A DNA stretch of 64,000 nt from Cliona cf. orientalis. Taxonomy: Eukaryota; Porifera; Demospongiae; Clionaida; Clionaidae. Where the stretch lies: assembly GCA_963930775.1 (NCBI GenBank), contig OZ005704.1:7502001-7566000 (forward strand). The letters run 5' to 3'. The translations under genes and the position numbers were made by a program. Shown piece by piece: positions 1,370 through 58,198 of the stretch (positions are counted from its first letter, which is position 1; each line of letters starts with the position of its first letter). Below the pieces are notes generated by a model. It searched no databases. It had not been told where the DNA came from and saw only the letters and a program-made list of their open reading frames with translations.

Positions 1370-3563
1370 TCATATGTGGTTTACAACACAAGAGGTGAAG
1401 TATTCCTCAATCAAAGTCACCTCATTGAACACGTCATCTCTCTTTCTCCTTTTGTACTTCCATGCAACCACCCAGTAAAATGCCAGGCCAAGTACAGACG
1501 CTCCAATGGCCACCAGAAAGAACCAAAACGCACATGTCTGACCTGTCTTTCCAAGAAATGGATAGCTGTAGACGCCCTCGGAGGAGAAGGTGAACTGTAG
1601 GAGGGAGGAGGCAAGAGAGAAGAGACCTTGGACAGAGTAGAACACACCAATGAGTAGTCCACGCATGTTGTATGGGCTCTGGGCACATATGAACTCAAAA
1701 CCTGCAATAATAGTACACGTGTTCATGAGGTGTTGTAGTCACAGATTATTATACATTAGATTGCACACACAATTTTTTATGTGCCCCCAGTACTGTACTA
1801 GCTATACAACAATCACATACTGGGAATGAAAATGAATATCTCAGCAACTGTCACAATGAGTAAGGATGGGAGGAGCCAGTAAATGTTGACAGCGAGTTGT
1901 ACCGGTGGCCTCTGGTCTTCGCTGAACATACACGCTGCATCTCCTCCACCACTCATGACACCCTTGTCGTACGATCCCATGACCTCGATGAGAAATAGAA
2001 TAAACATACTCATCACGGCTAGCGCAGCTCCAAAGCCAAGTCTCTTCAAGATGCTGGGATTGACGGTGGTGTACCTCAGAAATGGTACAAGGATGAGATC
2101 TAAAAGTGGTATGAGTGTCAGGAGCAGCGCAGCACTTATGCTGTCAGAGAGAGCTATGTTGACGTGGCACACTGCAGTTCCAATGTTGAGCTGAGCCAGA
2201 GAGCCAGACATGTGATGGGACATTACTTCAATTGCTCCAAATACCTGAAAAAAAAAAGAAATCACTAGCTATACATAGCCTGAGCCAGATCACTAATTTC
2301 ATTTGTATGGGCCAAATTTAGGGGGGGGGGGATAATTTTATAAAGACTTACTGTATTGTACGAGAAAAGTGGGAATCCAATGCTGAAGAGAACCAGTAGC
2401 ACACGAAAGAACGTCCTAACATCCTCCACCTGCTCTGTATCAAACTCTCCTCCATATCTCTTCTTTATGCTGTCCATACGACTGAAATTACACATGTCGA
2501 CTTCATGTCTCACTGTGCTTGGCACTAGTAAAGTGTCTGGCTTTTTCAACTTGGCCGCTCGCCTGAGAACCGACACAATCTGCTTGAGTGGATTATTTTT
2601 TCTACAGGATGGCTCAATCGTAAGCCATTCCTTCAACAGAGCATCGAGAATAATAGCCAGTGAGATACATACTAAGCCTATCCCAGCCTGTACTAGAATG
2701 CTCAACTCAATCTTGTCCTTGCAGAAGTTTGGAACGTGGAAAATGGCTATTCCGATGTTTAGAGTCCAGTACCACCAACTGAAGAAGGAGCTGAAGTGAA
2801 GATGCGAGGCGCCCTGCAGCTGGTCCAGGCCAAAAGGTATGATATTGGGCACGAAGAAAACATAGGCGATGCTAAGCAGGAGAAAAGTTAGCGGTAAAGT
2901 GATGTATCTATTAGCTAAACCGACGTGATTGTTATAATTGTCCAGGGAGAAAGCCACACTGAGAATGGCGAACCCAAACCATGCCATCCAGAGACTGAAT
3001 CGTATCACACTGTGCCTCCTGACGTAAGTGTCTGCTATGTGTCCAGCTATAGGAAACAGTATCGAAGTTACTCCATGAAGAATGATGATTCTTGGTAGGA
3101 TGATTTCTGTTCCGAGTATGATCTTCAGTATTTCTGATGTGACTCCATAGATTGCTGCTGAGAAGAGGGCGTTTATCAGAAGCACCACAATTACACTCTT
3201 GCGACTGATGAAGCGTTCACGATACAGTACCGTGTCGCAGCGAAGCCCGCGGCCCACGCTGTAGCGACACAGCATCTGTCGGAGCAGCAATCTTTCGCGC
3301 CATAGATCACAGCACTCGTGTACCTTGGCCTTCAGTAAGCTGCCGGTCCCGTCGCTCGACAAGCGTAGAGTGGGTGGCGAGCGTGGACGTGGAACGTGTT
3401 TGTTCGTCACGGCGTCTCGTAAGACCTCCCAGCTCTCCAATTGGCATATCTGAGACTCCACCGTGGTAGCTGCTGATCCATAGGAACCCTGCATCGTGTC
3501 GATTGTCTCGATCCCAGATCTGCCGGCGCGGTTAGATCTACCGCGCATGCGTACTAGATCCAT
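1370..3563 (-). CDS. SLC15/PTR-like transporter (PTR1)
   Basis: Three exons: 3563-2352, 2244-1821 and 1701-1370, together 656 codons including stop, with phases that close. The first 110 or so residues are hydrophilic and Arg/Ser-rich; then come about 12 hydrophobic segments. The GHIADTYVRRHSVIRF stretch matches the PTR2 loop motif (G-x-x-x-D-x-x-x-G-R-x-x-x-I) but has Arg where Gly is usual. The C-terminal FEFICAQSPYNMRG block matches the EF-x-Y-x-Q-AP-x-x-MR region of the family. Family members are proton-coupled oligopeptide or histidine carriers of plasma or lysosomal membranes. The ExxER proton motif of helix 1 is not visible, so the substrate and coupling are uncertain. It is a paralog of the gene at 14187-16236 and starts 82 bp from ligand gene A on the other strand. 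Confidence 0.75.
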
Positions 3564-3645
3564 ATAGCGCGTATACCCTGCGCGTGATTTCAGAACACCA
3601 GAATCGGGGAAGCTAAGCTGTGCTACTTAGCTATAATATACAAAG
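3564..3645. promoter_or_regulatory. Divergent promoter PTR1 / ligand gene A
   Basis: Only 82 bp separate the PTR1 ATG from the ATG of ligand gene A, so both promoters and 5' leaders must share this stretch. A CGCGCATGCG palindrome lies just inside the PTR1 coding start near 3541-3550. No TATA box is obvious. Confidence 0.45.
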
Positions 3646-6582
3646 ATGTACTTTAGCTACCGAATGCTGCTCGTACTATTTCTAGCTGTAAGTTCCCTAT
3701 AAAATAGCTATACTATAGCTAGCTACTTTTCATTATCAGACTCATAAAAAATAATAATATAATAATTATTATTATTAGTCTATGTCTTTCACTCATAGAG
3801 GTTGATGGTGAGTGGGAGGTACTCTGTTTCCATCACTCTGCACTCTTACAGCAACCTGCAGCATACATGTGTAAGGTGTAATACCTATTGCTGCGACGAG
3901 CGTAGAACTGGAGAGTGCACAGGAAGTTCCAGGTGTGATACATTGTTCAGCTTCTGTCTGGTACGAGAAGGGAGCTTTTCTTCCAACCCTCCCATCCGCT
4001 GTAATGGTCCCAGCACTAACACAGATACCCAGTCTAATAGTGATGGAACTATCAATTTCGCTCTTGGTGCAGTGCTTGGGATCACCAATCCCTTTGTACT
4101 AGATGGGATTTCAAATTTGTGGACGGTGAGTTAACGAAATCCAATTAAAATTAATGTCTATATTGATAGTGTTTCAGTTTGCACATGAATTGATATTAAT
4201 TTTTCACAGCTAAAGTGGTAATTGTAGCATATTTTCAGAATGCAGCTGAGAGGGAATTCATGAATATTATTTACTCCTTTCATGTCTAGGGCGTCCAATT
4301 TCAAGCCACCATCTGGGATATAGATACCACCACTTCAGATGATGGCATTGACGTCATCCAACTTGATATAAACGATTCCCCTGGAATTCCACCCGAGACA
4401 GTGATCAGAACTGGATTCTATAACATTGCCACGTTGAATTTCAGCTACCAAGTGAGATGTGACCCAAGATTCTATGGAGACTCCTGCCAGCACTTCAACG
4501 ATTGCCCAAGCGGAGATGTGTGCGGATTGAATGGTACTTGCATTGATGGACAAGACTCCTGTTCCTGTCATTGCGATCCCGGATTTACAGGAGAAAATTG
4601 TGAGATTGAAATTCCAACAGAAACAGAAATTCAATTTCGTGTAGTAACTACGGATAGCCCATGTGATCCGGGCTACACTGGAGCTCAGTGTACAGTCAAC
4701 ATTGATGATTGTGTTGAAGTAAACTGCAGCGGTCGAGGGCAGTGCATGGACGAAGTGAATACCTTCACTTGCTCCTGTGAACTGGGCTTCACTGGTGCAA
4801 ACTGTCAAATAAATATTAACAACTGTCTTGAAGCAAATAACTGTAGTGAGCACGGCCAGTGTGTCGATGGAGTGGATTCTTTTACCTGTGAGTGTGATTC
4901 TGGCTACACCGGAGAGCTCTGTGACTCACTAGTAGCACCAGACTGCTCAAGCATGCAGTGCGTCAATGGATCTTGCAGTCTTAATGAAAGCAGTGAATCA
5001 ATATGCAGCTGTGATCCAGGTTACACTGGAGAAAAATGTCATATTGACATTGACGATTGTTCTGGAATAGATTGTGGTGATAATTATCGCTGTGTGGACG
5101 GGGTAAATTCATACGACTGTGTCTGTGACTTTGGATATGCTGGAAATTCTTGTGAATTATCTAATGAAGGTTGGTCTGGCTAGCTATTAATTGCGTGGGC
5201 GTGAGCGTCAGGAATGGCTAATTCAATTAGCGAATCGTGAAGGGGCGTGGCCGAAGAGGCCATACGAGTGCTTTTGGTCGAAGGTGGGCGTGTCCAGAAT
5301 CGGCCAGGGATGATTATGCGCGTGTAATTAGCGACCGGAAGTGGCCCCTGAAGAAAAGGCCGGTAATTGCCCACATCAAAGCAAGATCAAAGCATTCTTT
5401 CTTAACTATTAACCGCAACGACTTAAAAAAAAAAAAAAAAAAAGCTTATTAGGCCTAATTAAGCATGTGGGCGTGTTCCTGGCACTGTGTGGAGTGTGTG
5501 CGTGTGCGTTAATGCAGGTTTTATTGCTTCCGATTGGGCGTGGCTTCACGGGCCAGTGCTTGGACGTACATCGGCGCCTGGGACTTGGCCTCGGCGATAG
5601 GTGGGCGTGTCCCGGCTGCGGTGGTGACCTTTGAACCCCGCGAGGAGGCTTTGGGGGCGTGGGTCAAAGGTGAGGCCATGTCTGTTAATGAGGCACTGTG
5701 GATCGAGGGGCCTGTACGGCTGGACGGAAGCTGACGATGGTTTGAAGCGGATGTGGTTGCGATGACGTGTTGTTACTCCGCCCACACAGGAAATGAGGTG
5801 AGCTCTTGCGTGGGCGGTGTGGCAGAACGGCCTCCAAGTGTTTGTGTGTGTTTTGGCCTTGAGGAAGCTGTGTGTTTTAATTGCGATTGATTGTGGGCTT
5901 CCGGTGGACATCCGGTGGTTAGTAGGCACTTGATTGAGAATGGTGGTCCTTGGGGAACAGGGTGGGGCTGTTTTGGGCGTGGCCTGACCCCTCCCTTCCG
6001 GCTCGGCTTCCGGTCCATGGAGGATATTAAATGAACACTTCCGGCTCTAGCAGCCACACCCCTGAGACCTGTGCAATTAAAAGGGCGTGGTTACACAACA
6101 TGCACCTCACTAATGACTTTGATGTGGTTTAGGTGTCATATCCCCCACCTCACGCCCACGCAATTTAATGGTACCTTAAAAGAGAGGGGAAGGGTTTATA
6201 GCGATTGCTGGCCAGACTAAGATCTGATTCTACACTAATGTAATGTGGTTAAATTTTTATTCATAGGTTCTGATACTAGTCGCCTGCTGGGCAGCTAACA
6301 AAACAGCCAAAGACAGGACAAGTGATTCAAGGAGCACTTCAAATTATTTTGTCAGCTTTAACGGTTAGTTTACAATAGAGACGTCTCAGTGGTTTAATAT
6401 CATTATACTCTATTTAATATTCAGCCAAGGCACAATCAGTTGAGTCCTCCGAAGCCTTTGACTTGTCAGTCAATGTTGGATATGGAGTATTGGGTACTCA
6501 CTGTAGCCACAAGGATCACCCAGAAGGATGCAGCCTTGAGGAAGGATATGAGAACGATAATCTCACACACCATAAGTTTTAA
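3646..6582 (+). CDS. Notch-ligand-like EGF protein A
   Basis: Exons: 3646-3687 (signal peptide MYFSYRMLLVLFLA), 3799-4125 (Cys-rich MNNL-like domain starting VSGRYSVSITL), 4290-5169 (rest of the N-terminal domain, a half DSL motif with VRC and FYGDSC, then five EGF repeats plus one incomplete EGF), 5453-5517 (tentative), 6267-6363 and 6425-6582. The last two give the end of a membrane helix and a tail containing NVGYGVLG, shared with gene B. Exon 3 ends in phase 1 but exon 6267 starts in phase 0, so an intermediate exon is needed; 5453-5517 fits both phases, is hydrophobic, and yields 522 residues overall, but its acceptor has no pyrimidine tract. The DSL motif has only its first two cysteines before an EGF takes over. 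The family signals to Notch on neighbouring cells; that role is inferred here. Confidence 0.65.
5170..6266. other. GC-rich intronic block with GGGCGTGG repeats
   Basis: This stretch lies between exons of gene A and is much richer in G+C than the surrounding AT-rich introns. The octamer GGGCGTGG or its one-base variants recurs about nine times (for example near 5236, 5285, 5467, 5534, 5600, 5655, 5974 and 6083). An 18-19 base A-tract sits at about 5425-5443. Long ORFs here on both strands are Gly/Arg/Pro-rich and look like composition artefacts. The only exon candidate I could support is 5453-5517. Confidence 0.5.
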
Positions 6583-6655
6583 ATAATTTCACCACAAACA
6601 TTACTGTTGATGAACATAATTGCGATTGTTCGTTTCTTCGCGTTGTCATTGGCAT

Positions 6656-6667
6656 TGCGCATGCGCA
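6656..6667. promoter_or_regulatory. NRF1-type palindrome upstream of gene B
   Basis: A perfect TGCGCATGCGCA palindrome lies 68 bp before the gene B start codon. It matches the known NRF1 (alpha-Pal) consensus. Binding is inferred from the motif only. Confidence 0.5.
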
Positions 6668-6734
6668 ATATGATCGCATTTGCAGCAGCGTTATAATTAT
6701 AGCGATCAGTGCGTGATAAAAGCTTGCCCACAAG

Positions 6735-8616
6735 ATGACCAATTTCCAACTACTCCTCACGACGTTCTTGCATTTGAACTCTCTCGTAAGTTTTCACGAG
6801 ATTTTGTATGCTCATGCAATCTTTGGCTATTAATTAAACAGTGTCTCAGTAAATAAGATTAATTTTAATGTGTGATAACTACTATCAACAGGCTATGAAA
6901 ACCTAAATTTAATGATTTCTCCTACTAATAACTATTCAACAGATCTTGGTGAGTGGCAATTACACTCTAAACATCACACTGGTCTCCTACCTCAACTACA
7001 ACAACTGGTGCTCAGAGTGTTCCGATGACGAGCTTGGTTGCTGTGACAACTACGACAGTACAGAGTGCACCAGGTCATTCCGATGTGATACATATTTTGA
7101 GTACTGCCTGCTGCCGGTGGAAACAGTCATCACTAGAGACCGTCTCCAGTGCAATCCAGTTGCCACTAGCACTGTGTTAACGGACGACGGGCCTATTGAT
7201 TTTACTCAGAGTGTTGTGCTCGGACTGAGCAATCCTCTACAGTTGAGTGGCACCTCTAACACTTGGACAGTAAGCAAGTAGCTAACAGTGTCAGAATAGA
7301 CCATTTTAAATAAAATTAATAGTTAGTATGGGCCATTTTTAATTATGTATAAATGGCCCTTGCAAGTTCCTTATGAAGTTGTTTTTGGAATGTTAATAAC
7401 GTTGCTTGGCAAATTTTGCACCGTTTGCAAATTTATCCACCTAGTGTTTATTAATTATTTCTTATCAAAGGGAACCCTGCTTCAAGTCTCCACCTTAGAC
7501 TGGGACGGTTCCAGCTCCTATGACCTCATTGATGTGTTTCACCTAAGAATCGACAACGAGGTTGGATCAGTCGTAATTGCCGGGTACCACAACCTTACTC
7601 AAATGGACCTTGCTTATCAGATCGTGTGCAACGATGGTTTCTATGGCGATGCCTGTCAGTTCATCAACGATTGTCCAAGCTTAGATGCGTGTGGTGAAAA
7701 TGGTGCATGCATTGATGGAAACAATTCGTACTCCTGTCGGTGTGATGATGGCTATAAAGGTGACCACTGTGAGTTTATCAATCACTGTCTTGGAGTAAAT
7801 TGCAGTGGTCAAGGCCAGTGTACAGGTGACGAGAATTCATACACTTGTCTCTGCTATGCCGGCTCTACTGGTATGAATTGTGAGATTAGCTTTGATGATT
7901 GTGCTTCTGTGAATTGCAGTGGACAAGGAGAGTGTATGGATGGAAACAGTTCCTATGCTTGTGCCTGCAATCCGGGCTTCACTGGTGATGATTGCGCTAT
8001 CAATATTGATGACTGTGTGAACAATAGCTGCAGTGGAAAAGGAGACTGTATTGAAGAAACAAACTCTTTCAGATGTGAGTGTGATCTCAGCTACACTGGA
8101 GAGCTATAATAATAATTATAATATTATCGAAAAATATCAGGGAGCCTGAAAAATGCTCTAATATTATTATTATCTCTACAGTTTAATTTGATATGCATCT
8201 TTCCCTATTCTTAGGTAATGGAGAAGCTGGCATAGTGCAAAGCAGACTTGTATTAATTATCGGGGTTACGCTTGGTGGCTTCAGCTTCCTCTTGTTTTTG
8301 TTGATTATGTTTCTCACTATTGTGATAACTTTGTGCAGAACAGCTCATTGGACATCAAATAAAAGCCAAGGTACTAATTTATAAGAATACCGCCATTAGC
8401 ACTCAAATTATGTGAATATCTGGTAAATTTTTCCCAGTAACTGAATCAGCACTCAAAAGACATGAGAATTTTAATCTGACCGGCAACATTGGATATGGTG
8501 TGGTTGCAGAACAAGCTAATGAAGGACATTGCTATGATGAGATTGGTCCCAGACAACCAGCTGCAGTCTGCAGAGGTGATATGGAGTCTCATTCAATGAA
8601 TGACTATGTACTTTAG
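6735..8616 (+). CDS. Notch-ligand-like EGF protein B
   Basis: Five exons: 6735-6785 (signal peptide MTNFQLLLTTFLHLNSL), 6943-7269 (MNNL-like, same 327 nt as in gene A), 7471-8074 (end of the N-terminal domain, half DSL motif with FYGDAC, three full EGFs and the start of a fourth), 8215-8370 (membrane helix LVLIIGVTLGGF and onward) and 8438-8616 (tail), giving 438 residues. The donor at 8075 (GTGAGT) cuts the fourth EGF after four cysteines; the intron still begins with readable EGF sequence (ECDLSYTGEL then a stop). The tail has NIGYGVV, CYDEIG and ends NDYVL. Signal peptide, ectodomain, single helix and short tail fit a Delta-like ligand. Reading through the donor would give a secreted form ending at 8109. 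Confidence 0.75.
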
Positions 8617-8710
8617 CTAAAGTCCCAAAAACTGAACTGAATATTAATTTTAGATCTGCATTTATGGCACTAATAATATTATTTTTGCCCGGTTTGGCCA
8701 AATCACATAC

Positions 8711-8747
8711 TGCGCATGCGCATACGGGACATATTAGCGCATGCGCA
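8711..8747. promoter_or_regulatory. Two NRF1-type palindromes upstream of gene C
   Basis: TGCGCATGCGCA at 8711-8722 and GCGCATGCGC at 8737-8746 lie 70-107 bp before the gene C start codon. The layout resembles the promoter of gene B and, in decayed form, gene D (TGCGCATGTGCA at 11528-11539), so the promoter seems to have been duplicated with the gene. Confidence 0.5.
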
Positions 8748-8817
8748 ATAGCAATTGGCCCAGTACTCAAAATCTGGGCAATAGCTACTCACGTTCAGAT
8801 CTACGTTATCACGCACA

Positions 8818-11215
8818 ATGAAAATCCTTCTACTGCTCCTTGCGACACTGTCAAATTTGGTAAATTTCTATCTATCATGATATTTATAGCTACTAATAAT
8901 TACTATTCTTACGATAAATTGCCAGGTGTTGGTGAGAGCAAACTACAACCTTAGCATCACATTGAACTCGTACACAAATGTCAACAACCTCTGCATAGAT
9001 TGCGTAGATCAAGGCATTGGATGCTGTGATGACTTTGCAGGAAGAAGGTGCACTACTCCTAATCGAGGATCGAGATGTGATACTTACTTCGAGTACTGTC
9101 TCCTACCACTGAACACCGTCGCTAGCAACGGACCAGTTTCGTGCATAGTTCGAGCGCGAAGTAATCCGGCAACGGACGATTCGGCCATTAATTTTGCACA
9201 GAGCACGGTGCTAGGGTTGAGTAATCCCCTTGTGCTGCGGGAACCCTCAAGCGCCTGGAACGTAAGCTACGTGTGCATAGAATCTCTCAGACTCCTGACC
9301 TTATTAAATTTTATTGTCCAAGATATCAGAAAAATTAGCAATGTGGGCTACTGCTGTAGTTTTACCCACTGGTGAGTAAGAATGAAAGTCCTGGCGTAAT
9401 ATGTCGTAATAATTTTTGGCAAAATTTAGCCTCATGCTTGTCTAGAGAATTCAGTGCCCCAGATGTACTTATACTAAGTCTTATAAAAGCCCAGAGATGC
9501 CTAATAAATAATCTTATAACAAGGCGATAATGACATTCACTAGATTTCACACTCTCTGACTGGTTATCACCTGTAGAGCTGTTGCCTTCTCCTATGTAGG
9601 GAATCCAATTGCAAATCACTGCCGTGGATGATGACTCCAGTGGTAATGATGACGTGATTAGACACAACGAGGATGAGAGAGACTCTAGATCTGCTGATGA
9701 TAATAATAATAATAACCCCAGTGGTATCAATGATCTCATTGATTTCTTCCAACTCAACATTAACTCCGGTGACATCAGTGGATCTTTGAATCTTAACGGA
9801 ATCTATAGCATTGCCCGGATTAGTCTCAGCTACCTGGTGGATCTCAATAACTGTATTGGAATAGACTGCAGTGGACGAGGCCAGTGCATAGATGGACGGA
9901 ACTCTTACACTTGCGTGTGCAACAGTGGCTTCACTGGCATGAATTGTGAAACAAACATCAATGATTGCGCTGGAGTGACATGCAGTGGAAGGGGTACATG
10001 TGTCGATGGCATAAATTCCTTTACCTGTTCATGCAACCTGGGCTTCACTGGTGCAAGCTGTGAAACAAACATCAACGACTGCGCTGGAGTGACGTGTAGC
10101 GAAAGGGGTACGTGTGTGGATGGTGTTAATTCCTTCACCTGTTCTTGTGACCTGGGCTTCACTGGTGCACAGTGTCAGACAAATATCGACGATTGTGTTG
10201 GAATAGACTGTAGCGGTAATGGTCAATGCATGGATGGCGTCAATTCATACATTTGTACGTGTGATGCTGGCTTCACTGGAGCAAATTGCGACATCACAGT
10301 AGTTAACTGCAATGGTGTAACATGTAGTGGAAATGGCCAGTGTGTGGAGAGTATGAACAGCTATACTTGCTCCTGCAACAATGGATTTACTGGTATGTTA
10401 TGTAAGACCAATAATATCTGATTCAATGACTCTATTGGTGTAGGCTATAGCGGTTGGGATCGTATGGGGACATCAATAATAATAATATTATATTATGTAC
10501 ATGTGTTTGTGATTTGGGCTATACAGGGGACAGCTGCCAATTTGAAATCCAGCAGGATGCCTGCTCAGGAATGAACTGCAGTGACCTCATTGTTAATGGT
10601 AATCGTTGATTCAGAATTAATGCATAGCATACTTTGTCTATAGAACATGCAGCCTCATCTTATGCATAGACGGTTGAAGCTAGAATTAATGCAATGTCAT
10701 ATCAATTTATGCCCATTTCCAAATTTCATTGAAATGAGCAGAATCTCTAATATCACAATAATGTATTAATTTTACTGAATTTTGTATTGCAGATGGCAGT
10801 GGATCAGGTCTGGACTCCATCTCACTGATCTTCATCATTGGAGGGACATTGGCTGGATTCATCTTGATCATTCTGATTGCTGTGATCATTGTATCCACCT
10901 TATATCATACATTAAGGACTAAGCAAGGTAACAACTACTTACACCTTAATTAATTTAGTTTGCAACATATTGTTGTTGGCAGCAACTGAGCCTGAACACC
11001 CATCCAAACGACAGCGCCTCGAGAGTATGGAGATGGCAGAGAATATTAACTATAATGGACCATCAGACTTCACAGGGGAGGAAGTGATTTATGATGAAAT
11101 TAGAACTGGAGCTGTTGGTACCCTTGGCTGTAGACGCCACGGAGTTTATGCGTTTAACAACGAAGAAATGAATGAAATGGAACCTTATAATTCTGTCTAT
11201 GACGTGGTGCTGTAG
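8818..11215 (+). CDS. Notch-ligand-like EGF protein C
   Basis: Six exons: 8818-8859 (signal peptide MKILLLLLATLSNL), 8926-9261 (MNNL-like domain, 112 codons), 9600-10392 (rest of that domain, then EGFs directly), 10527-10598, 10793-10927 (membrane helix) and 10983-11215 (tail), giving 536 residues. Unlike A and B, there is no FYG-x-x-C half-DSL motif: SYLVDLNNC leads straight into EGF 1. There are four full EGFs and a fifth built across the 10392/10527 splice. EGFs 2 and 3 contain CSGRGTC and CSERGTC, fitting the O-fucose consensus C-x4-S/T-C, and many contain the C-x-D/N-x4-F/Y-x-C-x-C hydroxylation pattern. The tail holds IYDEI and ends YDVVL, a possible class II PDZ ligand. It is a recent paralog of gene D. 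Confidence 0.75.
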
Positions 11216-11630
11216 TTAGTGTACTATCACCTGAAATCACACTATGTACACACTGGAACTATATAAACTGTACAGCTACTATATACAATCATAAAAAAGC
11301 AATGATGCTACCCTTTTCTTATTATTCCATTAGCACAGTATAATGATTATTAAACTATTAATGTCCTTCAATGATCAACAAATTGAAAATCTTATTTCTG
11401 TCATTCTTTGGCTCCTCAAGGACTGTCTGCTCCTAAAACTGAACTGATCTATTTCATGACGGCATTAATTTTTTGTCATATCCACTCCAAAACGTCAAAA
11501 ATATGGGACTTCAGCTGGATGATATACTGCGCATGTGCATACAGAAATGGCACATGAGCGCGTGCACAACGTATGTACCTAGTTAAAATCGGGAAACTCA
11601 CATTCATTCACGGTAGATTTACGTTATCCG
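11216..11630. other. C-D intergenic with duplicated promoter
   Basis: The right half, from about 11433, aligns by eye with the 8620-8817 region upstream of gene C, so it is a duplicated promoter. The left half is AT-rich and holds a transporter-like fragment described separately. Confidence 0.55.
11350..11432 (-). pseudogene. Relic of PTR-like transporter C-terminus
   Basis: Read on the minus strand, 11432 downward gives EQTVLEEPKN-like sequence that matches the C-terminal EQTVLEEYYEPKDN of the PTR-like gene at 14187-16236. At DNA level 11406-11430 aligns to about 14229-14260 with a short gap. No other part of the transporter is present here, so it is a non-functional remnant, probably left by the duplication that made genes C and D. 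It could also have been captured as a small insertion. Confidence 0.5.
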
Positions 11631-13967
11631 ATGGCACGTACGATGAACGTCCGTCTACTGTTCCTTGTGACACTCTTACACTCAATTTTGGTAATTTTCT
11701 ATCTATCACGATAATTGTAGCTTTTAAACTAGTATGATTATTGCCAGGTGTTGGTGAGAGCAAACTACAACCTTAGCATCACATTGAACTCTTATACAAA
11801 CGTCAACAACCTCTGCATAGAGTGTAGGGATGATGGCGTTGGCTGCTGTGACGACTTCGAAGCGAGAAGGTGCACTACTCCAAATCGGGGATCGAGATGT
11901 GAAACTTACTTTGAGTACTGTCTCCTACCACTGAACACCGTCGCTAGCAGTGGACCAGTTCCGTGCACAGTTCGAGCGCGAAGTAACCCGGCAACAGACG
12001 ATTCGGCTATTAACTTCGCACAGAGCACGGTGCTAGGGTTGAGTAATCCCCTTATGCTGCAAGAACCCTCAAGCGCCTGGAACGTAAGCTATAGATCTAA
12101 AATCTCTCAGTCTCCTAATACATCTAGCAGTAAGTTGAGCGAATATTAATTTTATGCAGTAGATTTACCTACTTGCAGAATGAAAGGCCTAGCTACAACA
12201 AGTATTGTTTTTATTCAAGTATCATGCAAAATCTTGTTTGATGGTCTCATGCACCCATTAAGAATTCAGTGGCCCCATTCTTTAAGCCATAAATAATGTT
12301 GATCATGAGTCCCATGCATACAAAGATGCTCATGATCAAGGGCTAATTATCTTGATAAAGCGATAATAAAATTCAGTAGATTTCACACTCCATGGACTGA
12401 TTATCACCTATAGAGCTGCTGCCTTCTTTTATAATAATTATTTAATATAGGGAATCCAATTGCAAATCGCTGCTGTGGATGATGACTCCAGTGGAAGCGA
12501 TGATCTCATTGACTTCTTCCAACTCAACATTAACTCCGGTGACACCAGTGGATCTTCTAACCTCAATGGATTCCACAGCATTGCCCAGATTAGTCTCAGC
12601 TACCTGGTGGATCTCAATAACTGTATTGGAATAGACTGCAGTGGACAAGGCCAGTGCATAGATGGACGGAACTCTTACACTTGCATGTGTAACAGCGGCT
12701 TCACTGGCACGAATTGTGAAACAAACATCAATGACTGCGCTGGAGTGACGTGCAGTGGAAGGGGTACATGTGTCGATGGCATAAATTCCTTTACCTGTTC
12801 GTGCAACCTGGGCTTCACTGGCGCAAGTTGTGAAATAAACATCAATGACTGCGCTGGAGTGACGTGCGGTGGAAGTGGAAGGGGTACATGTGTCGATGGC
12901 GTGAATTCCTTTATCTGTTCATGCAACCTGGGCTTCACTGGTGCAAGCTGTGAAATAAACATCAACGACTGCGCTGGAGTGACATGTAGCGAAAGGGGTA
13001 CGTGTGTGGATGGTGTTAATTCCTTCACCTGTTCTTGTGACCTGGGCTTCACTGGTGCACAGTGTCAGACAAATATCGACGATTGTGTTGGAATAGACTG
13101 TAGCGGTAATGGTCATTGCATGGATGGCGTAAATTCATACATTTGTACGTGTGATGCTGGCTTCACTGGAGCAAACTGCGACATCACAGTAGTTAACTGC
13201 AATGGTGTAACATGCAGTGGAAATGGCCAGTGTGTGGAGGGTATGAGCAGCTATACTTGCTCTTGTAACAATGGATTTACTGGTACGTTATGTTCAATAC
13301 TATAATATTATCGATAGTTAAGAGTTGATGTGCATATTGTTTGTGATTTGGGCTATGCAGGGGACAATTGCCAATTTGAAGTCCAGCAGGATGGCTGCTC
13401 AGGAATGAACTGCAGTGACCTCATTGTTAATGGTAAAATTAATCTCTGATAGTCTGAATTAATATTATTGAGATTTGCTTCATATAGATGGTAGTGAATA
13501 CATCACACTGATCTTCATTATTGGAGGGGCTTTGGGTGGATTCATTATCATGCTAGTAGTGTTTGCTATGATCCTCGCTGCAATTTTATTTTGTCATGCA
13601 TCAAGGACTAAGCAAGGTATAATAATATTATTATAGCAACACCTAACTTAACTTGTAGCCTACTTAAAGTGCCAAAGCACGGTATTATGATAATACTAAC
13701 GACTTGCATTGTTTTTTTTTTTTAGCAACTGAATCTCCACGATCACGTCACAGTGCAGCCCAACGACACCATCATGATAGCTATGATCTGACAGAGAATA
13801 TCAACTACAATGCCGGGCCATCAAACTTCACAGGAGAGGAAGCAATTTATGATGAAATTGCGACTGGAGCTGGCATTGGCTGTAGACGCCATGGAGTTTA
13901 TGCGTTTAACAACGAAGAAATGAATGAGATGGAACCTTATAATTCTGCCTATGATGTGGTGCTGTAG
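11631..13967 (+). CDS. Notch-ligand-like EGF protein D
   Basis: Six exons: 11631-11690 (signal peptide; a second ATG at 11643 is also possible), 11748-12083 (MNNL-like), 12451-13282 (EGF array), 13361-13432, 13488-13616 (membrane helix, LIFIIGGALGGF) and 13726-13967 (tail), giving 556 residues. Same architecture as C with one more EGF; that extra repeat carries a two-codon insertion (CGGSGRGTC). As in C, the half-DSL motif is missing. The tail shares IYDEI, CRRHGVYAFNNEEMNEMEPYN and the YDVVL end with C. Exons 2 and 3 are nearly the same as those of C at DNA level, so the copy is recent or kept alike by conversion. Notch binding is inferred from family and may not hold without a DSL region. 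Confidence 0.75.
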
Positions 13968-14186: not shown

Positions 14187-16236
14187 TTAACAACAAAGTC
14201 TAATTTTTTTGGTTTTCTTATTGTCCTTTGGCTCATAGTACTCCTCAAGGACTGTCTGTTCATTGATCATGTGACCACCTCTCTCCCGCTTACTGTAGCG
14301 CATAGCAGCAACGACATACACGATAAAACCGATAATTCCAATCCCGATACCGATACTCAGATACCAGGATCCACAAGTGAGGTTGCCTAGCAACCGATCT
14401 TGAGCTCCCTTTATACTGAATGCTGCTACGATAATTCCCATGAGCAAACCGATCAGTGATACAAATATCGCTTGTGATGCATAGAACAGACCGATGAGCA
14501 TCCCCCTCATGCTGAAAGGAGATTGGGCACAGATGAACTCAAAAGCTGGATTGGGGATATGAAAGTTACAATAATTACTTTATGATAATAGCTAACTATA
14601 ATGCTATATACTTACTTGGCACTGATATTAGGAATTCCCCCAATGACATCATAAAAATGATTGGCATGAAGGATGTCGCTTTAAAGGATATTGGGCTCGA
14701 AGACGTGAAGTTGACATTGAAAAACATACAGTGCTCGCTCCCATTCACAATGCTTGTATCAGTTCCGTTCACGATATGCATACTTCCTCTGTGACCAAAA
14801 ATATCTATTAGCAGAATTCCCATGGTACCGATGAGGGCGAGAATCATCCCCAGTCCTATCCGGCGAAGGATTCGTACGATGTAACGTCGAAAGAATGGAT
14901 AAACAATGAACTCATAGATGGGAATAACGAGGATGATGGTGGTGTTCGGGGTGAGGTGTGAAATAGAAAATTCACTGATACACTGGCTAAAAATGATTGG
15001 CACTCGCATATGTTTAATGAATATGCCGTAAATTGAGTATCCCTGCATTTTCAAATGAAAATTAATCATTGATAAGGAACTTATATATATACAACCTATT
15101 AAGCTTACCTGGTATATGATGAACACTCCACAGAGACCAACCGCAAATATAAAGCCGAGAATTCTCCAAAATGTGTGCACATCTTCAACATCATCTTCGT
15201 CAAATGGACCCCCATAAAGTCGCTTGGCAAAGTCCCACCTACTGGGCGGAGCGTCGTATGTGAAGGTAATCGCCTTACGTCGTCCAACCAGCTGCTTGTT
15301 TTTTTGGATGAATCTCGAAATCTTCCATATTCTTCTAAGTGGATAGTGCGTCTTAGGATCTTTGTTCAAATACTTCGGAGAAAATATGAAATCGATGCAC
15401 AGAGCAGCAGTTAAAAATGCACAGTCAAACACTAAGGGGATGAATCCTAGGCGAAAGAAATATTCCTGATTGTAAGGATTCGGATTTCTCGAGTTTGGAC
15501 CAAATAAAAATTCTTCGTTGCAATATTCATGTTTGGCGTGGACTATGAGCCAAATCAGTACACCAAAACTCAGTTTTCTCGTCCAGTAGTACCAGTGTAT
15601 GAATGCACTGTGCTGTTCCGTGGAACCATCCTCCATTTGATCGAGCCCGAATGGAATAATGTTTGAGTGAAATCCGGCTATACCGATAGAGTTGAGAATA
15701 TACACAAGGATAGCCAAAAGCAGTGTGACAACTCTCACTTTTCCGTATCGGTGATTGACATTATGTTCATACATATCTGGGGAATAGACCACGCTATATT
15801 TCAGCAGTGCAATGAGAAGGAGGAACACGGAGCCCAACCACATGAGGAACAGGCTGAATCGTATCACCTTGTATCGGCCCACCTTTGCGTCTGCTATCCA
15901 ACCAGCCACGGGGTATAGCAAATTGGGGAGCACTTCTTGGAGAAATATGGTGCACAGTGCGTTTTTCCAGGCCTCGTGTAGGCCAAAAAAACCCTGCAGG
16001 CTATTGAAGACGGTGAACTGGTGGCTAAATACCAACAAATTCCATAGCAGCACGAGGAGAGCCCCCCGGCTTTTCAGTTGTCTCACTTGGTAACGTCTGC
16101 GCGGCTTGTTCTTCTCCTTCAATCGCCGCTCTCTTCTCAGACGCGAGGCCACGAGCGTTGCCGTGATCGAGGAGGCACTCGTGGTCTCCGTCTCGCTGAT
16201 ATCGGGATTATTCACTCCGTAGCACTTTCTCTCCAT
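14187..16236 (-). CDS. SLC15/PTR-like transporter (PTR2)
   Basis: Three exons: 16236-15109, 15042-14616 and 14545-14187, together 637 residues with closing phases. The short intron 15108-15043 is in frame, so read-through would not stop. A basic N-terminal stretch (RLRRERRLKEKNKPRRRYQ) precedes about 12 hydrophobic segments. GWIADAKVGRYKVIRF is a good PTR2 loop motif, and the third exon begins with FEFICAQSPFSMRG, equivalent to the family's QAP region. The helix-1 ExxER motif is not visible. The same three-exon structure as PTR1 marks them as paralogs. Proton-coupled peptide or histidine transport is the family role; substrate is not readable. The final residues read KKTKKIRLCC. Confidence 0.78.
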
Positions 16237-16424
16237 GTTGATGTTTAGTAGCTACCGGTACAGGAAAGCCTCCCTACTCCAACTGCAAGGTCAAACTGGG
16301 CGGGGCTCGTCACGCGCGGTTAATTAATGCGTGGGAGGAATAGGAATTAGCCAAATTGGTGGTGCAAAGTAATGGTAATCGTTGATACAGAAAAATGATG
16401 ATAAAATACATCCCATTAAGATAG

Positions 16425-17342: not shown

Positions 17343-18014
17343 ATGAGTGGTAAGTTTGTGACCCTGTGCGTCGTGGGGCTGCTCGGCTCTCTCTTCGTCG
17401 GATACTGTGTCTATTTCGACAAGAAGAGGCGCAGTGACCCCGACTACAAGAAGAAAGTGGTCGCAAGTAAGCTTCTTAGCTTCGATTCTTTAATAGTCTT
17501 CAGCAGTGTACAGGCTCATACAGTACAGTGTGTATCAGTGATGTACAGTTTAGGAGGTAAAGACACTTTTTTTTGTATTCATAGGGAGGAGAATGAGAAG
17601 ATTGGCTGCAAAGAAAAACACCATCGACCTTCGCGACCCCAAAGCACGGGAGGAATTCCTCATGTCGGAAATCATGAAGGCAAACCAAAAGATGGCAGAA
17701 GGTATGACAAAATCATCGAAACCATATTGGTGTCACATGATCCCCCCCCCTTCGCTATATAATATTATTATGCAGGCAATATAGAAGATGCTCTGCCACA
17801 TTTTGTCAACTTCATACACTTTTCTGGGAACCCTAACGCCTCGCTGATGACACTCCAGCAGAGCATGCCAGCCCCTCTCTTCAATCTCATCTACCAGGCT
17901 TACGTCGCCATGAGACTGCAAGGGGCTAAGCTAGCCGCGGGGAAGAAGGGCTCCACTGCTGCAGCGGTGACAGGAGCAGCTGCCGCTAAGAAGGATGAAC
18001 CGGAGGTAGACTAG
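17343..18014 (+). CDS. TOMM20: TOM20 mitochondrial import receptor
   Basis: Exons 17343-17466, 17585-17701 and 17776-18014 encode 159 residues. An N-terminal membrane anchor (about residues 5-24, ending FVGYCVYFD) is followed by KKRRSDPDYKKK, closely matching the animal TOM20 segment YFDRKRRSDPNFK. The cytosolic domain contains the LTLQQSMPAPLFNLI helix pair region seen in the family's LQQTLPPPVFQ. TOM20 sits in the mitochondrial outer membrane and recognises presequences. The C-terminus has an Ala/Lys-rich tract and ends with acidic residues, as usual. It is convergent with the GCC2-like gene. Confidence 0.9.
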
Positions 18015-22000: not shown

Positions 22001-25000
22001 TTTCAACGTTTCATGACTCAGGAAAAAATCAGTACGTGTGAAACGTTGAAAACAAGGGAGGGCCTAGGTACAAGGAGGCTATAGCTAGCGACTTTCTAAA
22101 TGTTTATCACGTGGTTCTCACTTCAGCTCGTTGCTGAGATCAGACTGAGCCGGGGCAGATGACTTCTGCTTCAGCACACTGTGCACTCTCACCTGAGATA
22201 GTAAAATCGTACGGACAATACGGATAATTAGATCAACAGTAGTATAATAATTATTATGGTCCACTCACCTTGTATTGCTCGTACTCCTGTTGTGATTGTG
22301 CCAGAGCGGCCTGGGCGGAGCCTAACTCTCCCTGGGCCACGCCCAACTTATGCTCCAAAGTGCGTATAGTGCGATGGAGAGTTTCCACTGACGACTCAGA
22401 CTATCAATACAAACATAAAAAAATTTAATGTATAATTATTAGTAGTTAATATTGTATTCTTGGTCCCACTGAACACACTTTGGGGGGATGATGGCTACAT
22501 GTACGCGTAGGATGGCTTTCTGGTTACGATGATTTAATGGGAAAGCATGACATTGTGTTAATTGTCATGTCATGTCCACAATAGGTACAATGGGTAATAG
22601 CCGTATCATGTGATATCAATTAGTGACATATACTATAGTACATTCCTTGCATAATCCCTTAAAGTCTTCCAGGGCATTTAATTATGGCTACAGTTCTAAG
22701 CAATGAAAGGAAATATAGAGCTACATAGCTGGTATAGTATTTTTGACGTCTGCATTTTGCTTCTATAAAGGTTGGGTGACTTCATTGCTAACTACAACTG
22801 CAAACTAAAGTTAGTTATATAGTTCGTTAGTTAGTTCATACAATAATCTATAGCTATACCTATACTTGCATCAAAGTGATTTTAGGAATGAAGTTCGTTC
22901 ATCTCTTCTCTCTACTAAGTTTACAATTACGCTGCTTGAGCGCAGCAAAGAGAGAGTCAATTCTTATCATTGCACTGCCTCAAAGTGATAGTGAAGTGTC
23001 AGCCAGCTGGGAGAGAGGGGAAGAGATCCGGCCTGGTGCTCTTGCAGCAATTGAAGAAGCAAATAATGACTCTCTTTCATTCAATGTATCCCTAGTTGAG
23101 GCTACCAGTGGTCCAGTAAGTAGATATGACTTCCCTTATTCAGGAAATGTGCTGGAAATCATTGCTAATCTCACCTGGCAGGAGAGATCTTCAGACATCA
23201 TCGGTATTGCTGGAGTTTTGCATCCCAATGTCCTGGCGGTTATCAGTAGATTTCAGCTACCAATAATTTCTCTCACTCACTTCGACCCTGGCCCACATAA
23301 TATTAGATCTAGTGTACAGTACATGACAGCATCTACTTCAACACTCACTGACTCAATCCTCACATTCATGAAAGAAATACAGCCAAGGAAAATTAAAATA
23401 ATAACTGAAATCAAACAGCCATATTGGAAAGTTTCAATGCAACTGAGTACAAAAGCTAACATTTTGTTGGACACTGAAATCATCGACAAATATCAAACAT
23501 TTCTGTCAGATATCGCTAACAGAGTTTATGCCTCCAATACACATGTTGTTCTGCTGAGTGTGGGTCCCTCTACTGCTGTACCAATGTTGTGTGAGGCCTA
23601 TAAAATAGGACTGACATGGCCATATTATGCTTGGATGTTACACAGCTACCGATTTGAAGATTTGCTAAACAGTTTGTCATATAATGAAGAATGCACTGCA
23701 CAGAAGATCTTGGAAGGTGTTTTCATCTTTCAGTTGACTGAGGAGCAAAATGATCTTGATTCAGAAACTATGTGGGGTAACCCTTACGCCGATCTTCTTC
23801 ATGATTCAGTTAGGGCATTGATTTCGTCAGTGGACAATAGCTCATCTGCCCATTCAAACGAATCATCTTCAATGCCATATTTCAGCCCTGGCAGCTCCCA
23901 GGTCTATATCTATCACAACCTGAATGGCACGGTGAGTCTTACTGGTACTTATGATGGCACATCACATACTCTCACAAAGTTTAATGCAAGTGAGATTTTC
24001 ACTGATCATGACCTTCCTCAAATTTACATACCAATTTTGTCTCTTTACATACTTCCCTTGCCTATCCTTTCTTTCCTCTTCAATACTGTATTGTTGGTTC
24101 TCTATATCGTTTTTCGCAAAGAAAAAAGTGTCAAATCCACTAGCATCTCTCTCAGCATGTTATTGTTCACTGGATGCTATCTTATGGCCATCTTTATCAT
24201 TCTTGATATACTATTTGATAGATACAGGATTGATCAATGCATGCTTCTTTATACTCTGAGTGCTCTGGGACTTTCTTGGCCACTTATTCTTGTAGTACTT
24301 CTACTGAAAATGCTGAGAGTATACCGTATCTTCACAAAATTCAAAGTATTTGGTAAAAGCAGAAAATACAAAGACTACGCTCTCCTTTTCTATACGGTAC
24401 TTCTCTTATTGCCCCAAGTTACTTTGCTGATAATTCGGACTGCGGTCGATCCAAGCCATAGGGTCGAAAATCACACAGAACAATCTGGAGTCATCATGAT
24501 AGTTGGCGTCTGTATTAGTGAACACTGGCAAATTTGGTATTGGGCCGCATTTCCTTATTATTGGACATTTCAAGGAGCTCTCGTTTTTGTCGCGATCAAA
24601 ACAAGAAAAATTAGATACAAAAATTTTAAGGACACAAAAAAAGTTAATTTACTAATGTTCCTTATCTTGATGATTGGTGTTTGTGGTATAGCTTATGTAA
24701 TTACTTTTTTCACACTTGGTCTCTATTACCACACTGCTATACTCACTATTATCATACACACTCTCATACCTACTGCTTGTCAATTTACGTTGTTTGTCCC
24801 AAAAATTTGGCCCCCACTACAAAAAAAGTTATCATCAAAAATCTAATGCATTAATCACTTGATTTTTTTTTTATCAACTATTCCATGTACAAACTATATT
24901 CTTTTCATACAATGTATGTTATCTGATATGATATAATGATTATGTGATCACATATTAATATATGTGAATGCATCAAGTAAAAAGGAAATTTTAGGCATAA

Positions 25001-55198: not shown

Positions 55199-58198
55199 CT
55201 AGTTCTTGCGAGGAGTATTGGATTTTCTTGACTTAGTTCTCGTCCACTTCTTACTGGCCGAACGTCTCTTTCGTTTTTTACCAGAGAGTGGCGGACTTTT
55301 AGACACCGCTCGACTCAGCTGTGCCAAGACAATGTTTGATATTCTCAGCTCGTACGGCGCCGACTCGATCTGCTTCAGAATATCTTCAAACATTTCGTCA
55401 CTTTCGGTGCCGTCCTCATGGTTCACTACTACCCCGCTGTTCTTTCCTTCTCTCCCCACTCCTCCATCCACGGCCATCGCCATTCTCTCCATCATCTCCT
55501 CTCCCCCTCCTCCTCCCTCTCCCATACCTACTCTTTCTTTCCCTCTACCTCCTCCTCCCTCTCTCCCTCTTTCTCTCTCTCCTTCCCTTCTTTGCTTCTC
55601 TTCAACAGAACTTATAGTCCCATCGCTTTCCTCTCCAGACGGTGTGCTATATCCCGTGCTCAGTGAATTCATCGCGCTGGTGGTAATGATCACAGTCTCG
55701 CAGGAGATGTCTTCAGCCACTGCCATATCCGGTGCTCCCCGTGGTCTCTCGGCTGTAGTTACAGTACTGCTCCCTCCGCTGAATTCCGTCACGTCTGTCA
55801 GCTCCATAGTCGACGCCGTGACCTCACAACCGATCGTTATCGATTCTCCCGATTCGTTGCAGTCTTCGAGGACCATGTCCGCATCGGGGTTTTGAATTGG
55901 AACGTCTTCCTCAATCGGTTTAGGCTCCTGTTGAGGTGGGGACAATGGAGGTGGTTCGTCCTGCTGTGTGACTACCGTGTACTCTACGGGCATGGGGACG
56001 TCAGATTTGGGCTCGATCACAGCCACCTCCAGCACTTGGTCTTCGATGATTGTCGGTAGAAGGTCGACGGGATCATGGAGTACCTCCATGGCTCCTCCCG
56101 GATCAGGCACGAGGTTTTCGATGCTCATTCTGCTGGTGTCGTCACCTTCCACAGCCACTGTAGAGTGATCGAGGACTGGAAAATGACCATTGACCTCACC
56201 TACAATATTATTGGGGTGTTCCTCCTCATTTGGCATCAAAATTCTTTCTTGTATTACTGTCCCGGTCTCATCAAATACCTGCTGAGCGTGGCTGGGGACT
56301 TCCTGTGGTGGAATGCCCCTATTCGTTTGATCTTCATTAACTTGTGAAGAAGACTCCTCCCCCCCACTCTGTGGTGGTGCCGGTGCCGGCTGTCTGACAT
56401 CACTACATGTATTCTGAGGCTCAACCATAGCGTAGCTGTGCTCAGTCCTAGTCCTAGCTTCGTCACCTTGCTGGGAAACACTAGTTAATGTCGCCTGCTG
56501 GTGTACGTGTGAACCAGCACTTTCTCCCACGTTGACAGTCGGTGAACTCTTGACAAACGTCGTGTTGAGATCTCTTTGAGGCTGTGGTGAGACTTCGCCC
56601 TGAACGCCACCAACGGATGAGGAGAGAGGTAGGGGTGAGGACTCAAAAGCTGACCCCTCTATGCTCATATCGACAGGTAGAGAAGGGTGATCACTGACTG
56701 GTGCTGGTAAAGGGTGACTAGCGATGGGTAGAGAAGGAGGGTGACTGTTCTTCGTAGCTGTGGTGGTCGTGATGGCGGCAGTGGAAGGGCTAGGTAGTTG
56801 TTGAGGAGAGGGATTCAAGGCACTAATCGTTGAATTCTGTTCAGTGTTCGTTCCAACATCATCTTTCATGAGAATGGCGGGAGGTAAAGCTTCTGCAGCA
56901 CTCACACTTGTTATGATGCTATTATTCGGGGTAATTACAGGGGCCAGAGATTCTCCCCCAGAGCGGGAAAATCGAAGGGGCACAGAATTGGTCGATAATC
57001 TAACATTGCCGTACGTCTTGGTTAGTTCTTCGGGACTGCCTTGCATGTCCGAAGTCTCAGGGGTAGATTTTGCGATCTCCTTATTGCCATGACTACCAGA
57101 TGCCCCTTCCATTACTGAACTTTGACCCTCCACCGGCTCCGCTGACTTCGGGTCTCGACTAGTGCTATCCTTGGGAGCGGTTGTCGATTCCATGGGAACG
57201 GGAACAGAGGAGATGGGTGTGGCAATGTCCCGACAGACGTTCATTGGTAGGCGGGGCGGCTGGGGGCGTTGTGGGTGTGGCAATTGTGGTGTTGCGTTCA
57301 TTAGCCCGAGGCTTGCGTCGAGGATGTTGCCGGTGAGTGTCCGGTTGTGAAGGGGAGGGAGGCGAGGGGTCATCGTCTGCTTCATCTGTTGAATACGTCT
57401 CAGCGTCGAGGCTTGCTCCAACACAAACTGCATCTCCTAAAAAATATGGATAGGACAAGAATTATTTTTGATAGCCCACCTGCTATAGATAATCTCTGAG
57501 AACGTAACGATTTTCCCCCCATACCCCTCTCATTGTGGCAATAAATTGAAGTGTGGATGAATACTCAAACAGATGTGATGGGCGTGTACTTACGGCTATG
57601 AGTTGGTCCGGCTGTTCCATGGAGTGCTCCCTCGGCTGAATGGGCGGTACCACATTCTGCTGACTCAGCAAACTAGCTTTGAATTCATCCTGAGCCACCT
57701 GCAGTCTATGTGACTGCATTGTGTGTGTACATGAGGATATTTCAAGGTAAAATAAGTACACAAAACTAAAAGCTAGACCTACTATTGCCTCCAGGTAGTG
57801 TTCCCCTTTCTCTGTCTCCTGTTGTCTTGCTATGCCAAAGGCTTCTTGCCTTCTTCGAAAGAGGCCATCTTTGAGGCCAATCTGTGTGTCTTCAATGGTC
57901 TCTTTCTCCTGTCTCAGTTGGTGGTCCACAGGTCTATACGCTGCGGTAGGACAGCAATCAACTGCGTAAGTCAACTTGTTGATTTCTGTAAATTTGGTAT
58001 CTCACCTGGCTTAATGGCTTCTAAGTTTTGTTTTTTCCGCCATTTTCGCTTTCTTTTGCTCAAAACCTTCGCAATTTTCAGACATTTGGATTTCTTCGGT
58101 ATAGATTCTTCTAACCGCCGCGAAATTAGCTTGACAATCTCTTCTCTAAGCCTAGCGCTCTCCGAGCAAAACTCTTCAATTTGACCTTCAGCCGCCAT
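55199..58198 (-). CDS. Uncharacterised disordered protein, 902 aa
   Basis: Four exons: 58198-58006, 57940-57783, 57713-57594 and 57436-55199. I do not recognise the family. Residues 1-150 are helical and charged: an N-terminal EEFCSESARLREEIVKLISR stretch, a basic patch SKRKRKWRKKQN, and then heptad-like sequence up to about residue 170. The remaining 730 residues are low in complexity, rich in Pro, Ser, Thr and Glu, with a Gly/Glu/Arg block near residue 800. The C-terminus is strongly basic (GKKRKRRSASKKW, TRTKSRKSNTPRKN), suggesting a nuclear, nucleic-acid-associated protein. I considered PDCD7 and BRD8 but found no decisive motif. It starts 125 bp from GPATCH11 on the other strand. Confidence 0.7.

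Follow-up and report, generated by a model that had tools for sequence, protein, structure and literature searches.

The Notch ligands Delta, Delta-like and Jagged carry a signal peptide, an N-terminal MNNL (C2) domain and EGF repeats. The ligand definition requires both the MNNL and DSL domains (PMC6040629), the latter being recognized by six cysteines and a YYG motif (PMC2770060). In the sponge Cliona cf. orientalis, four genes, A, B, C and D, share this architecture except for the DSL domain. They lie head to tail on the plus strand at 3646-13967 of the 64,000-nucleotide stretch analyzed here (G000:C16:7502001-7566000 of the 216.8 Mb genome; hereafter called "the window"), and the coordinates below are positions within the window unless a chromosome label is given. 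The labels C1, C2, C3, C7, C9 and C12-C17 with coordinates denote chromosomes, as distinct from the "C2 domain". With a probability of roughly 0.6, we regard A–D as tandemly arrayed genes of Delta descent for type-I membrane proteins (gene A being now without an intact membrane exon), in which the DSL domain has been reduced (A and B) or removed (C and D), and whose products are likely C2-headed cell-contact proteins rather than canonical Notch activators.

Two contacts between the ligand and Notch have been described. Site 1, located on the C2 domain in a loop held by a disulfide, contacts Notch EGF12, while site 2, located on the DSL domain, contacts EGF11 (PMC5538765). In the DSL domain of Jagged-1, the residues F199, R201, R203, D205 and F207 on one face form the Notch contact, and the disulfides link consecutive cysteines (PMC3415683). 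The C2 head of Jagged-1 is reported to bind calcium through Asp72 and Asp140 and to bind liposomes independently of the DSL domain; the F207A substitution reduces the Notch binding to background while the lipid binding is kept; and phospholipid binding is described for the C2 heads of Jagged-1, Dll-1 and Serrate, with Dll-1 binding liposomes with calcium (PMC3888931). Among sponges, Amphimedon is reported to possess five Delta genes (AmqDelta1-5), all five with a DSL domain, of which one has a software-detected MNNL domain; their tails contain predicted SH2/PTB sites, and the bilaterian set of DSL contacts is described as not conserved (PMC3482393). Like these, the Cliona genes are multi-copy Delta-type genes: Pfam searches at E ≤ 0.001 identified 44 DSL places and 13 MNNL places in the genome. 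None of these places lies inside 3646-13967, and A–D differ from AmqDelta1-5 in having no intact DSL domain. DLK1/DLK2 and the other DSL-less non-canonical ligands likewise belong to the Delta line and are membrane proteins with an EGF stalk. However, the DLK proteins are not known to have the C2/MNNL head, which A–D keep.

How much of the DSL domain remains in the array? A full-DSL paralogue of the same genome, L012, reads CTANFYGSNC-ATHC-VPRDDSQGHYSC-GSNGERIC-LSGWSEPVSDC. A and B contain only the first of the three DSL Cys loops (CDPRFYGDSC and CNDGFYGDAC, respectively), which is followed by an EGF repeat, and thus two of the six cysteines. C and D contain none of them, and the end of their C2 domain (ISLSYLVD) joins the EGF repeats directly, within one exon. 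This junction leaves no room for a DSL domain, and the idea that C and D hide a separate DSL exon was rejected for the same fusion of C2 and EGF in a single exon. None of the four genes was found to contain an intact DSL domain, and in the exon-by-exon search only exon 3 of gene A matches DSL (E 0.8). According to the Cys spacing in the Delta-like alignment, the Notch-contact residues fall between DSL cysteines 2 and 4, and this stretch is absent in A–D. The proposal that these are canonical Notch-ligand genes is thus not supported: A–D fail the DSL test, and therefore should not be called Delta ligands.

The reduction of the DSL domain extends to the relatives of A–D. Among the 36 loci compared, eight have a full DSL domain, including C16_7361 with a short middle loop, while 19 have a four-cysteine "mini-DSL" (for example, CAENFGGSNCTQCVPGFTGPDC) that lacks the stretch between cysteines 2 and 4. 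Four loci have a "half-DSL" (A, B and two on chromosome C9), two have none (C and D), and three are unreadable or irregular: the DSL state of C2_4376 and C1_14756 was not readable, while the DSL of C15_7262 is shrunken and irregular (CADGYYGPDCSWLCTENC). If the cysteines pair as in the full domain, the middle disulfide loop would be the one missing from the mini-DSL, with the two outer loops retained.

MNNL was the only Pfam family matched by all four exon-2 translations (E 0.015, 0.0039, 0.041 and 0.0054 for A, B, C and D, respectively), each short of the curated 22.5-bit cut-off. Across the genome, MNNL matches at E ≤ 0.1 were obtained for 19 of the 27 window-type exons, the best at 3.2e-6, and one relative, at C2:4376077, exceeds the cut-off and also matches gene B at 9.3e-18. 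A profile constructed from exon 2 of A–D only placed seven of the eight Pfam-MNNL places retrieved for comparison above all 2000 shuffles (best E 4.6e-6, seventh 0.0022, best shuffle 0.012). In the open-reading-frame search with the HMMER filters on, this profile reached five of the eight, and L013, L014 and L015 were missed. An earlier shuffle test had put all eight full-DSL exons above 2000 shuffles, but those eight were the ones that the A–D profile had reached; because that set was pre-selected, the seven-of-eight test is the one to trust. The same eight exons entered the profile–profile comparison with the 27 window-type exons, which scored 114, as compared to at most 16 for 30 column shuffles and 12 for the reversed profile.

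The beginning of exon 3 agrees with this assignment. Profile A5, which combines 21 reduced exon-3 starts and contains no full-DSL row (C, D, L033, L040, L044, L046, L048, L054 and L075 were left out), was compared with the PDB. Jagged-2 ranked first (4.6e-4), and the Delta-like protein 4xl1 followed at 0.004, with synaptotagmin C2 domains between and after them; the acidic calcium loop is the part matched in the synaptotagmin-type C2 domains (Synaptotagmin-7, E 0.0032). The synaptotagmin-type C2 domains are cytosolic and are not known to be joined to EGF repeats. The comparison of profile A6 with A5 was circular, as A6 includes the A5 rows, and was not used. In addition, the full-DSL and reduced genes have in common a phase-0 junction between exons 2 and 3, with the AG acceptor placed in six of the eight full-DSL rows and 25 of the 26 reduced rows (the exon 2 donors in the relatives were chosen by hand among the phase-0 GT sites). 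The homology of exon 2 of A–D to the MNNL exons of the intact MNNL+DSL genes in the same genome is well supported by these sequence comparisons, as the sequence-only reading had suggested in calling this exon MNNL-like. Both the N-terminal MNNL/C2 domain, with the CDxYF...CL core as in Jagged-1, and the EGF repeats of the Delta-type architecture are found in A–D.

The same reading had proposed Pfam searches with the spliced proteins, and had named a lack of MNNL and DSL hits, together with better matches to another EGF family such as fibulins or fibropellins, as grounds for abandoning the Notch-ligand assignment. The whole spliced proteins gave no MNNL or DSL match at E ≤ 1 in Pfam and matched mainly EGF families, so these grounds are half present at the level of the whole protein, where the generic EGF models score; they fail on the exon-2 matches and the profile evidence. 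The EGF parts match generic models (EGF_Teneurin, EGF_TEN or EGF first), and not the fibulin/fibropellin family. A fibulin/fibropellin origin was rejected, since exon 2 matches MNNL only.

The array is part of a larger group. Counted exon by exon, with the window included, the queries with genes B and C gave 51 and 60 matches at E ≤ 10, respectively. At E < 1e-6, gene B matches about 30 window-type exon-2 places, including the four in the window, on the seven chromosomes C1, C2, C3, C9, C13, C15 and C16. The mini-DSL query gave 36 matches at E ≤ 0.01, some of which are full-DSL genes or single EGF repeats, and added three places on chromosome C14. A tree of 36 rows was constructed from the C2 region alone, with the DSL region excluded. 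L013, L014, L015 and L024 (no exon-2 match with profile A1), L046 (nearly identical to L044) and L075 (whose exon 2 is broken) were left out. The tree separates the eight full-DSL rows from the other 28 with 98/95 support, and among the 25 of these 28 rows with a readable DSL state, none is full (19 mini, four half and two none). A–D form a single clade (99/97, with A as a long branch), which supports their tandem origin as proposed from the shared exon skeleton, and this clade stands beside the two half-DSL genes on chromosome C9 (92/91). A second clade (85/94) consists of 21 rows, the 19 mini-DSL genes and the two unread loci, and C15_7262 lies near the base. Because Delta genes of other animals carry a complete DSL domain, we consider the reduction of DSL to be the derived state.

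Further arrays of DSL exons, which are part of the 44 DSL places, are located at C12:6551932-6733629, C14:6920934-6963659, C9:723502-737452 and C17:1500740-1537008, as compared to the five Delta genes reported for Amphimedon. For the full-DSL gene at C16:7411, the downstream stretch (L085, C16:7412700-7416200) has many EGF repeats on separate open frames, while A–D keep most of theirs in one long exon.

The four gene models were obtained by exon splicing from the sequence. The proposed array on one strand, with its exon coordinates and GT-AG boundaries, its exon 2 lengths (327 nt for the A/B pair and 336 nt for the C/D pair) and its intron phases of 0, 0, 1 and then 1, was confirmed; C and D have one extra phase-1 intron, and the exon 2 alignment of A–D contains 33 invariant columns. 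The proposed membrane-helix and tail exons were confirmed in B, C and D, each of which consists of a signal-peptide exon, a Cys-rich exon, an EGF exon, a membrane-helix exon and a tail exon, and not in A. The single hydrophobic helix following the EGF repeats makes B, C and D type-I single-pass membrane proteins, with spliced lengths of 438, 536 and 556 residues, respectively.

In gene A, the signal peptide is encoded by 3646-3687 (ATG, with a GTAAGT donor in phase 0), the N-terminal part of the MNNL/C2 domain by 3799-4125, and the rest of C2, the first DSL Cys loop and the EGF repeats (five by pattern) by 4290-5169, which together form an ectodomain of about 416 residues. The phase-1 frame of the membrane-exon remnant (6267-6363) encounters a stop after ten residues, and its other frame reads VLILVACW... 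with a 21-residue hydropathy of 0.2. The tail-exon remnant (6425-6582) contains NVGYGV, as compared by eye to NIGYGV in B, and is out of frame when spliced. Intron 3 of gene A contains an insert of about 1 kb (5189-6165) with 17-nt perfect terminal inverted repeats, which is separated by about 100 nt from the exon-4 remnant downstream. At least 46 genome matches to it were listed, including the window copy and one 219-base piece, with 40 of the 1743 candidates scored; the other full-length copies among the matches listed are 96-98% identical. The insert is a multi-copy element, which was probably active recently.

Gene B consists of the signal-peptide exon (6735-6785), the MNNL/C2 exon (6943-7269), the exon with the rest of C2, the first DSL loop and the EGF repeats (7471-8074), the membrane-helix exon (8215-8370; 21-residue mean hydropathy 2.7) and the tail exon (8438-8616), with YDEI and the C-terminal NDYVL. 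Where C and D have their exon-3 donor, the homologous site of gene B reads GAGAGC in place of GT. Since this donor is lost, the EGF exon would have to use a donor 24 nt upstream, as in the limits given here, or end at a stop; with the upstream donor, three EGF repeats are complete by pattern and the last is truncated.

Genes C and D are organized alike. The signal-peptide exons are at 8818-8859 (C) and 11631-11690 (D), the MNNL/C2 exons at 8926-9261 and 11748-12083, and the exons with the rest of C2 and the EGF repeats at 9600-10392 (five repeats by pattern) and 12451-13282 (six). A 72-nt exon follows the EGF exon in both genes (10527-10598 and 13361-13432), and is followed by the membrane-helix exon (10793-10927, hydropathy 3.0; 13488-13616, hydropathy 2.9) and the tail exon, with VIYDEI and the C-terminal SVYDVVL in C (10983-11215) and AIYDEI and SAYDVVL in D (13726-13967). 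In gene C, an acidic, Asn-rich insertion of 27 residues (within 9600-9800) extends the calcium loop of C2, and has no counterpart in D.

Outside the array, two POT-family (PTR2) transporter genes on the opposite strand flank it at about 1370-3626 and 14187-16251; the frames 2265-3626 and 14596-16251 match the family with E 1.2e-6 and 1.8e-10, and the outer limits were taken from the neighbouring frames. The gene at 17343-18014 on the plus strand presumably encodes TOMM20, as recognized by eye. An open frame at 22831-24846 on the plus strand corresponds to a class-C G-protein-coupled receptor (7tm_3, E 5.2e-24; ANF_receptor, E 3.5e-4), and the 745-residue open frame at 55199-57436 on the minus strand has no Pfam match at E ≤ 0.001.

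What could the proteins do without a DSL domain? The C2 head retains the features on which calcium binding depends in Jagged-1. The position of Asp72, anchored by N53 and K65 of Jagged-1, is occupied by D in 26 of the 27 rows and by E in gene D. The D-x-D of the acidic loop is kept in all 21 rows examined (A and B among them), and C and D read DDD, so both apical loops of C2 have acidic residues at the calcium-ligand positions. The two cysteines that appear to match the disulfide of the site-1 loop are kept in 27 of 27 rows. With these positions retained and the DSL stretch missing, the family still has the acidic head and the site-1 scaffold but no longer has site 2. The EGF repeats contain three, two, four and five hydroxylation-type motifs in A, B, C and D, and one, none, two and two O-fucose motifs, respectively, as counted by their consensus sequences. 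B, C and D each have YDEI in the tail. The motifs NPIY, NPLY and NPVY occur downstream of the genes C16_7382 and C9_2438 and of the full-DSL gene at C17:1500, in open frames that we take as tail exons from their sequence alone. Tyrosine motifs of these kinds can be read as SH2/PTB sites. The tail of gene D, used as a query, matched only D and C in the genome.

The coding sequences of C and D are under constraint. The ratio of nonsynonymous to synonymous substitution rates (dN/dS) between them is 0.20 both in exon 2 (dS 0.29, dN 0.057) and in exon 3 (dS 0.135, dN 0.026), and 0.33 over the whole coding sequence. These substitution rates show purifying selection on C against D, and this constraint indicates that both genes have been maintained without DSL. 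The pairs B/C, B/D, A/B and A/C have dS near or above 2 and were not used for selection; as the pairs between A, B and C/D are near silent-site saturation (dS 2.0-2.8), these duplications are old.

Considering these features, we propose the following manner of action. Lacking the DSL contact stretch, proteins of the A–D type could not use the contact between DSL and EGF11, and with site 2 unusable they would not be canonical Notch activators. Their most likely place of action would be cell contacts, by way of a C2 head that binds calcium and is held out on the EGF stalk, with the lipid binding carried over from Jagged-1, Dll-1 and Serrate. The tail with its tyrosine motif could recruit SH2/PTB proteins, and a weaker, modulatory contact with Notch through site 1 of C2 may persist. 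Thus, as far as sequence features can tell, A–D most likely serve either in cell contact that depends on calcium and lipid or as dampeners of Notch.

Several observations weigh against this proposal. Besides the sub-threshold MNNL scores, the eighth MNNL place, L014, was missed by the A–D profile (rank 156th, E 9.4), and the broad exon-2 profile A3, from which L044, L046 and L075 were left out, matched nothing in the PDB at E ≤ 10. The mini-DSLs of the relatives resemble laminin-type EGF domains: EGF_laminin matches 13 of 21 members (best 3e-4), and DSL matches six of 21 (best 0.03). A laminin-type EGF origin of the mini-DSL is thus conceivable. The lipid and adhesion roles are transferred by analogy from the Jagged/Delta C2 domains, and the C2 domains of Delta-like 1 and 4 are described as having no calcium sites (PMC5538765), in contrast to the account of Delta in PMC3888931. 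The match to Asp140 depends on the alignment to Jagged-2. Between C and D, the dN/dS is higher outside exons 2 and 3, at 0.45 in the membrane and tail exons and 2.58 in the 14-residue signal exon (seven changes, one silent and six coding). Finally, a full-DSL gene also has a tyrosine/NPxY tail, so the tails do not separate the roles.

Among the alternatives, a tentative place belongs to the possibility that A–D are Notch decoys or cis-inhibitors, which would occupy Notch only weakly, fail to pull it open and so damp the signalling, like the DLK-type non-canonical ligands. The conserved site-1 cysteines would fit such a role, given the contact of site 1 with EGF12, and both full-DSL paralogues and the LNR repeats of a candidate Notch (C13:5860853-5861062; LNR repeats are also present on chromosome C7) exist in the genome. 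However, as the single DSL substitution F207A abolishes the Jagged-1/Notch binding down to background (PMC3888931), site 1 alone may be too weak.

It is rather doubtful that A–D are self/non-self or microbe-recognition receptors. An expanded family at about 30 places on seven chromosomes, with an EGF stalk, YDEI tails in B, C and D, NPxY-type motifs in the likely tail exons of relatives, and an acidic loop that varies by 27 residues between C and D, would suit such receptors, but the dN/dS of 0.20 in exons 2 and 3 of C/D argues against diversifying selection there. We view with equal doubt a further idea, that a Notch ligand lineage was turned into receptors: with the Notch face of DSL cut out, the C2 head with its calcium-dependent lipid binding, the EGF stalk and the tyrosine-motif tail (YDEI in B–D, NPxY in relatives) would recognize membranes, for example exposed phosphatidylserine, and signal inward, like the Draper/MEGF10-type receptors.

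That A–D are ordinary Notch ligands, still activating Notch through a DSL domain too divergent to recognize, appears unlikely. The half-DSL of A and B does retain the FYGD motif, and the AmqDelta ligands are likewise reported not to conserve the essential bilaterian contact sites of DSL (PMC3482393), but the single-exon junction of C and D has no room for a DSL domain, and the 19 mini-DSL relatives possess four of the six cysteines. Decay into pseudogenes after the tandem duplication is very improbable for the array and plausible for A only: the membrane exon of A and a splice donor of B have been lost, but C and D keep long open frames, as do the ectodomains of A and B, and C and D were rejected as pseudogenes on their dN/dS of 0.20 in exons 2 and 3.

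Among the papers listed by our literature searches, no title or abstract dealt with DSL-reduced sponge Deltas, which does not prove their absence. Since the Pfam DSL and MNNL searches list none of A–D, searches of this kind may underestimate how many Delta-derived genes sponges have. The DSL domain defines the Notch ligands, and its full, mini, half and absent states on a common C2-EGF skeleton in one genome constitute a natural series. This series lets one ask what the C2 head and the EGF stalk do alone, and whether cell contact or Notch signalling came first.

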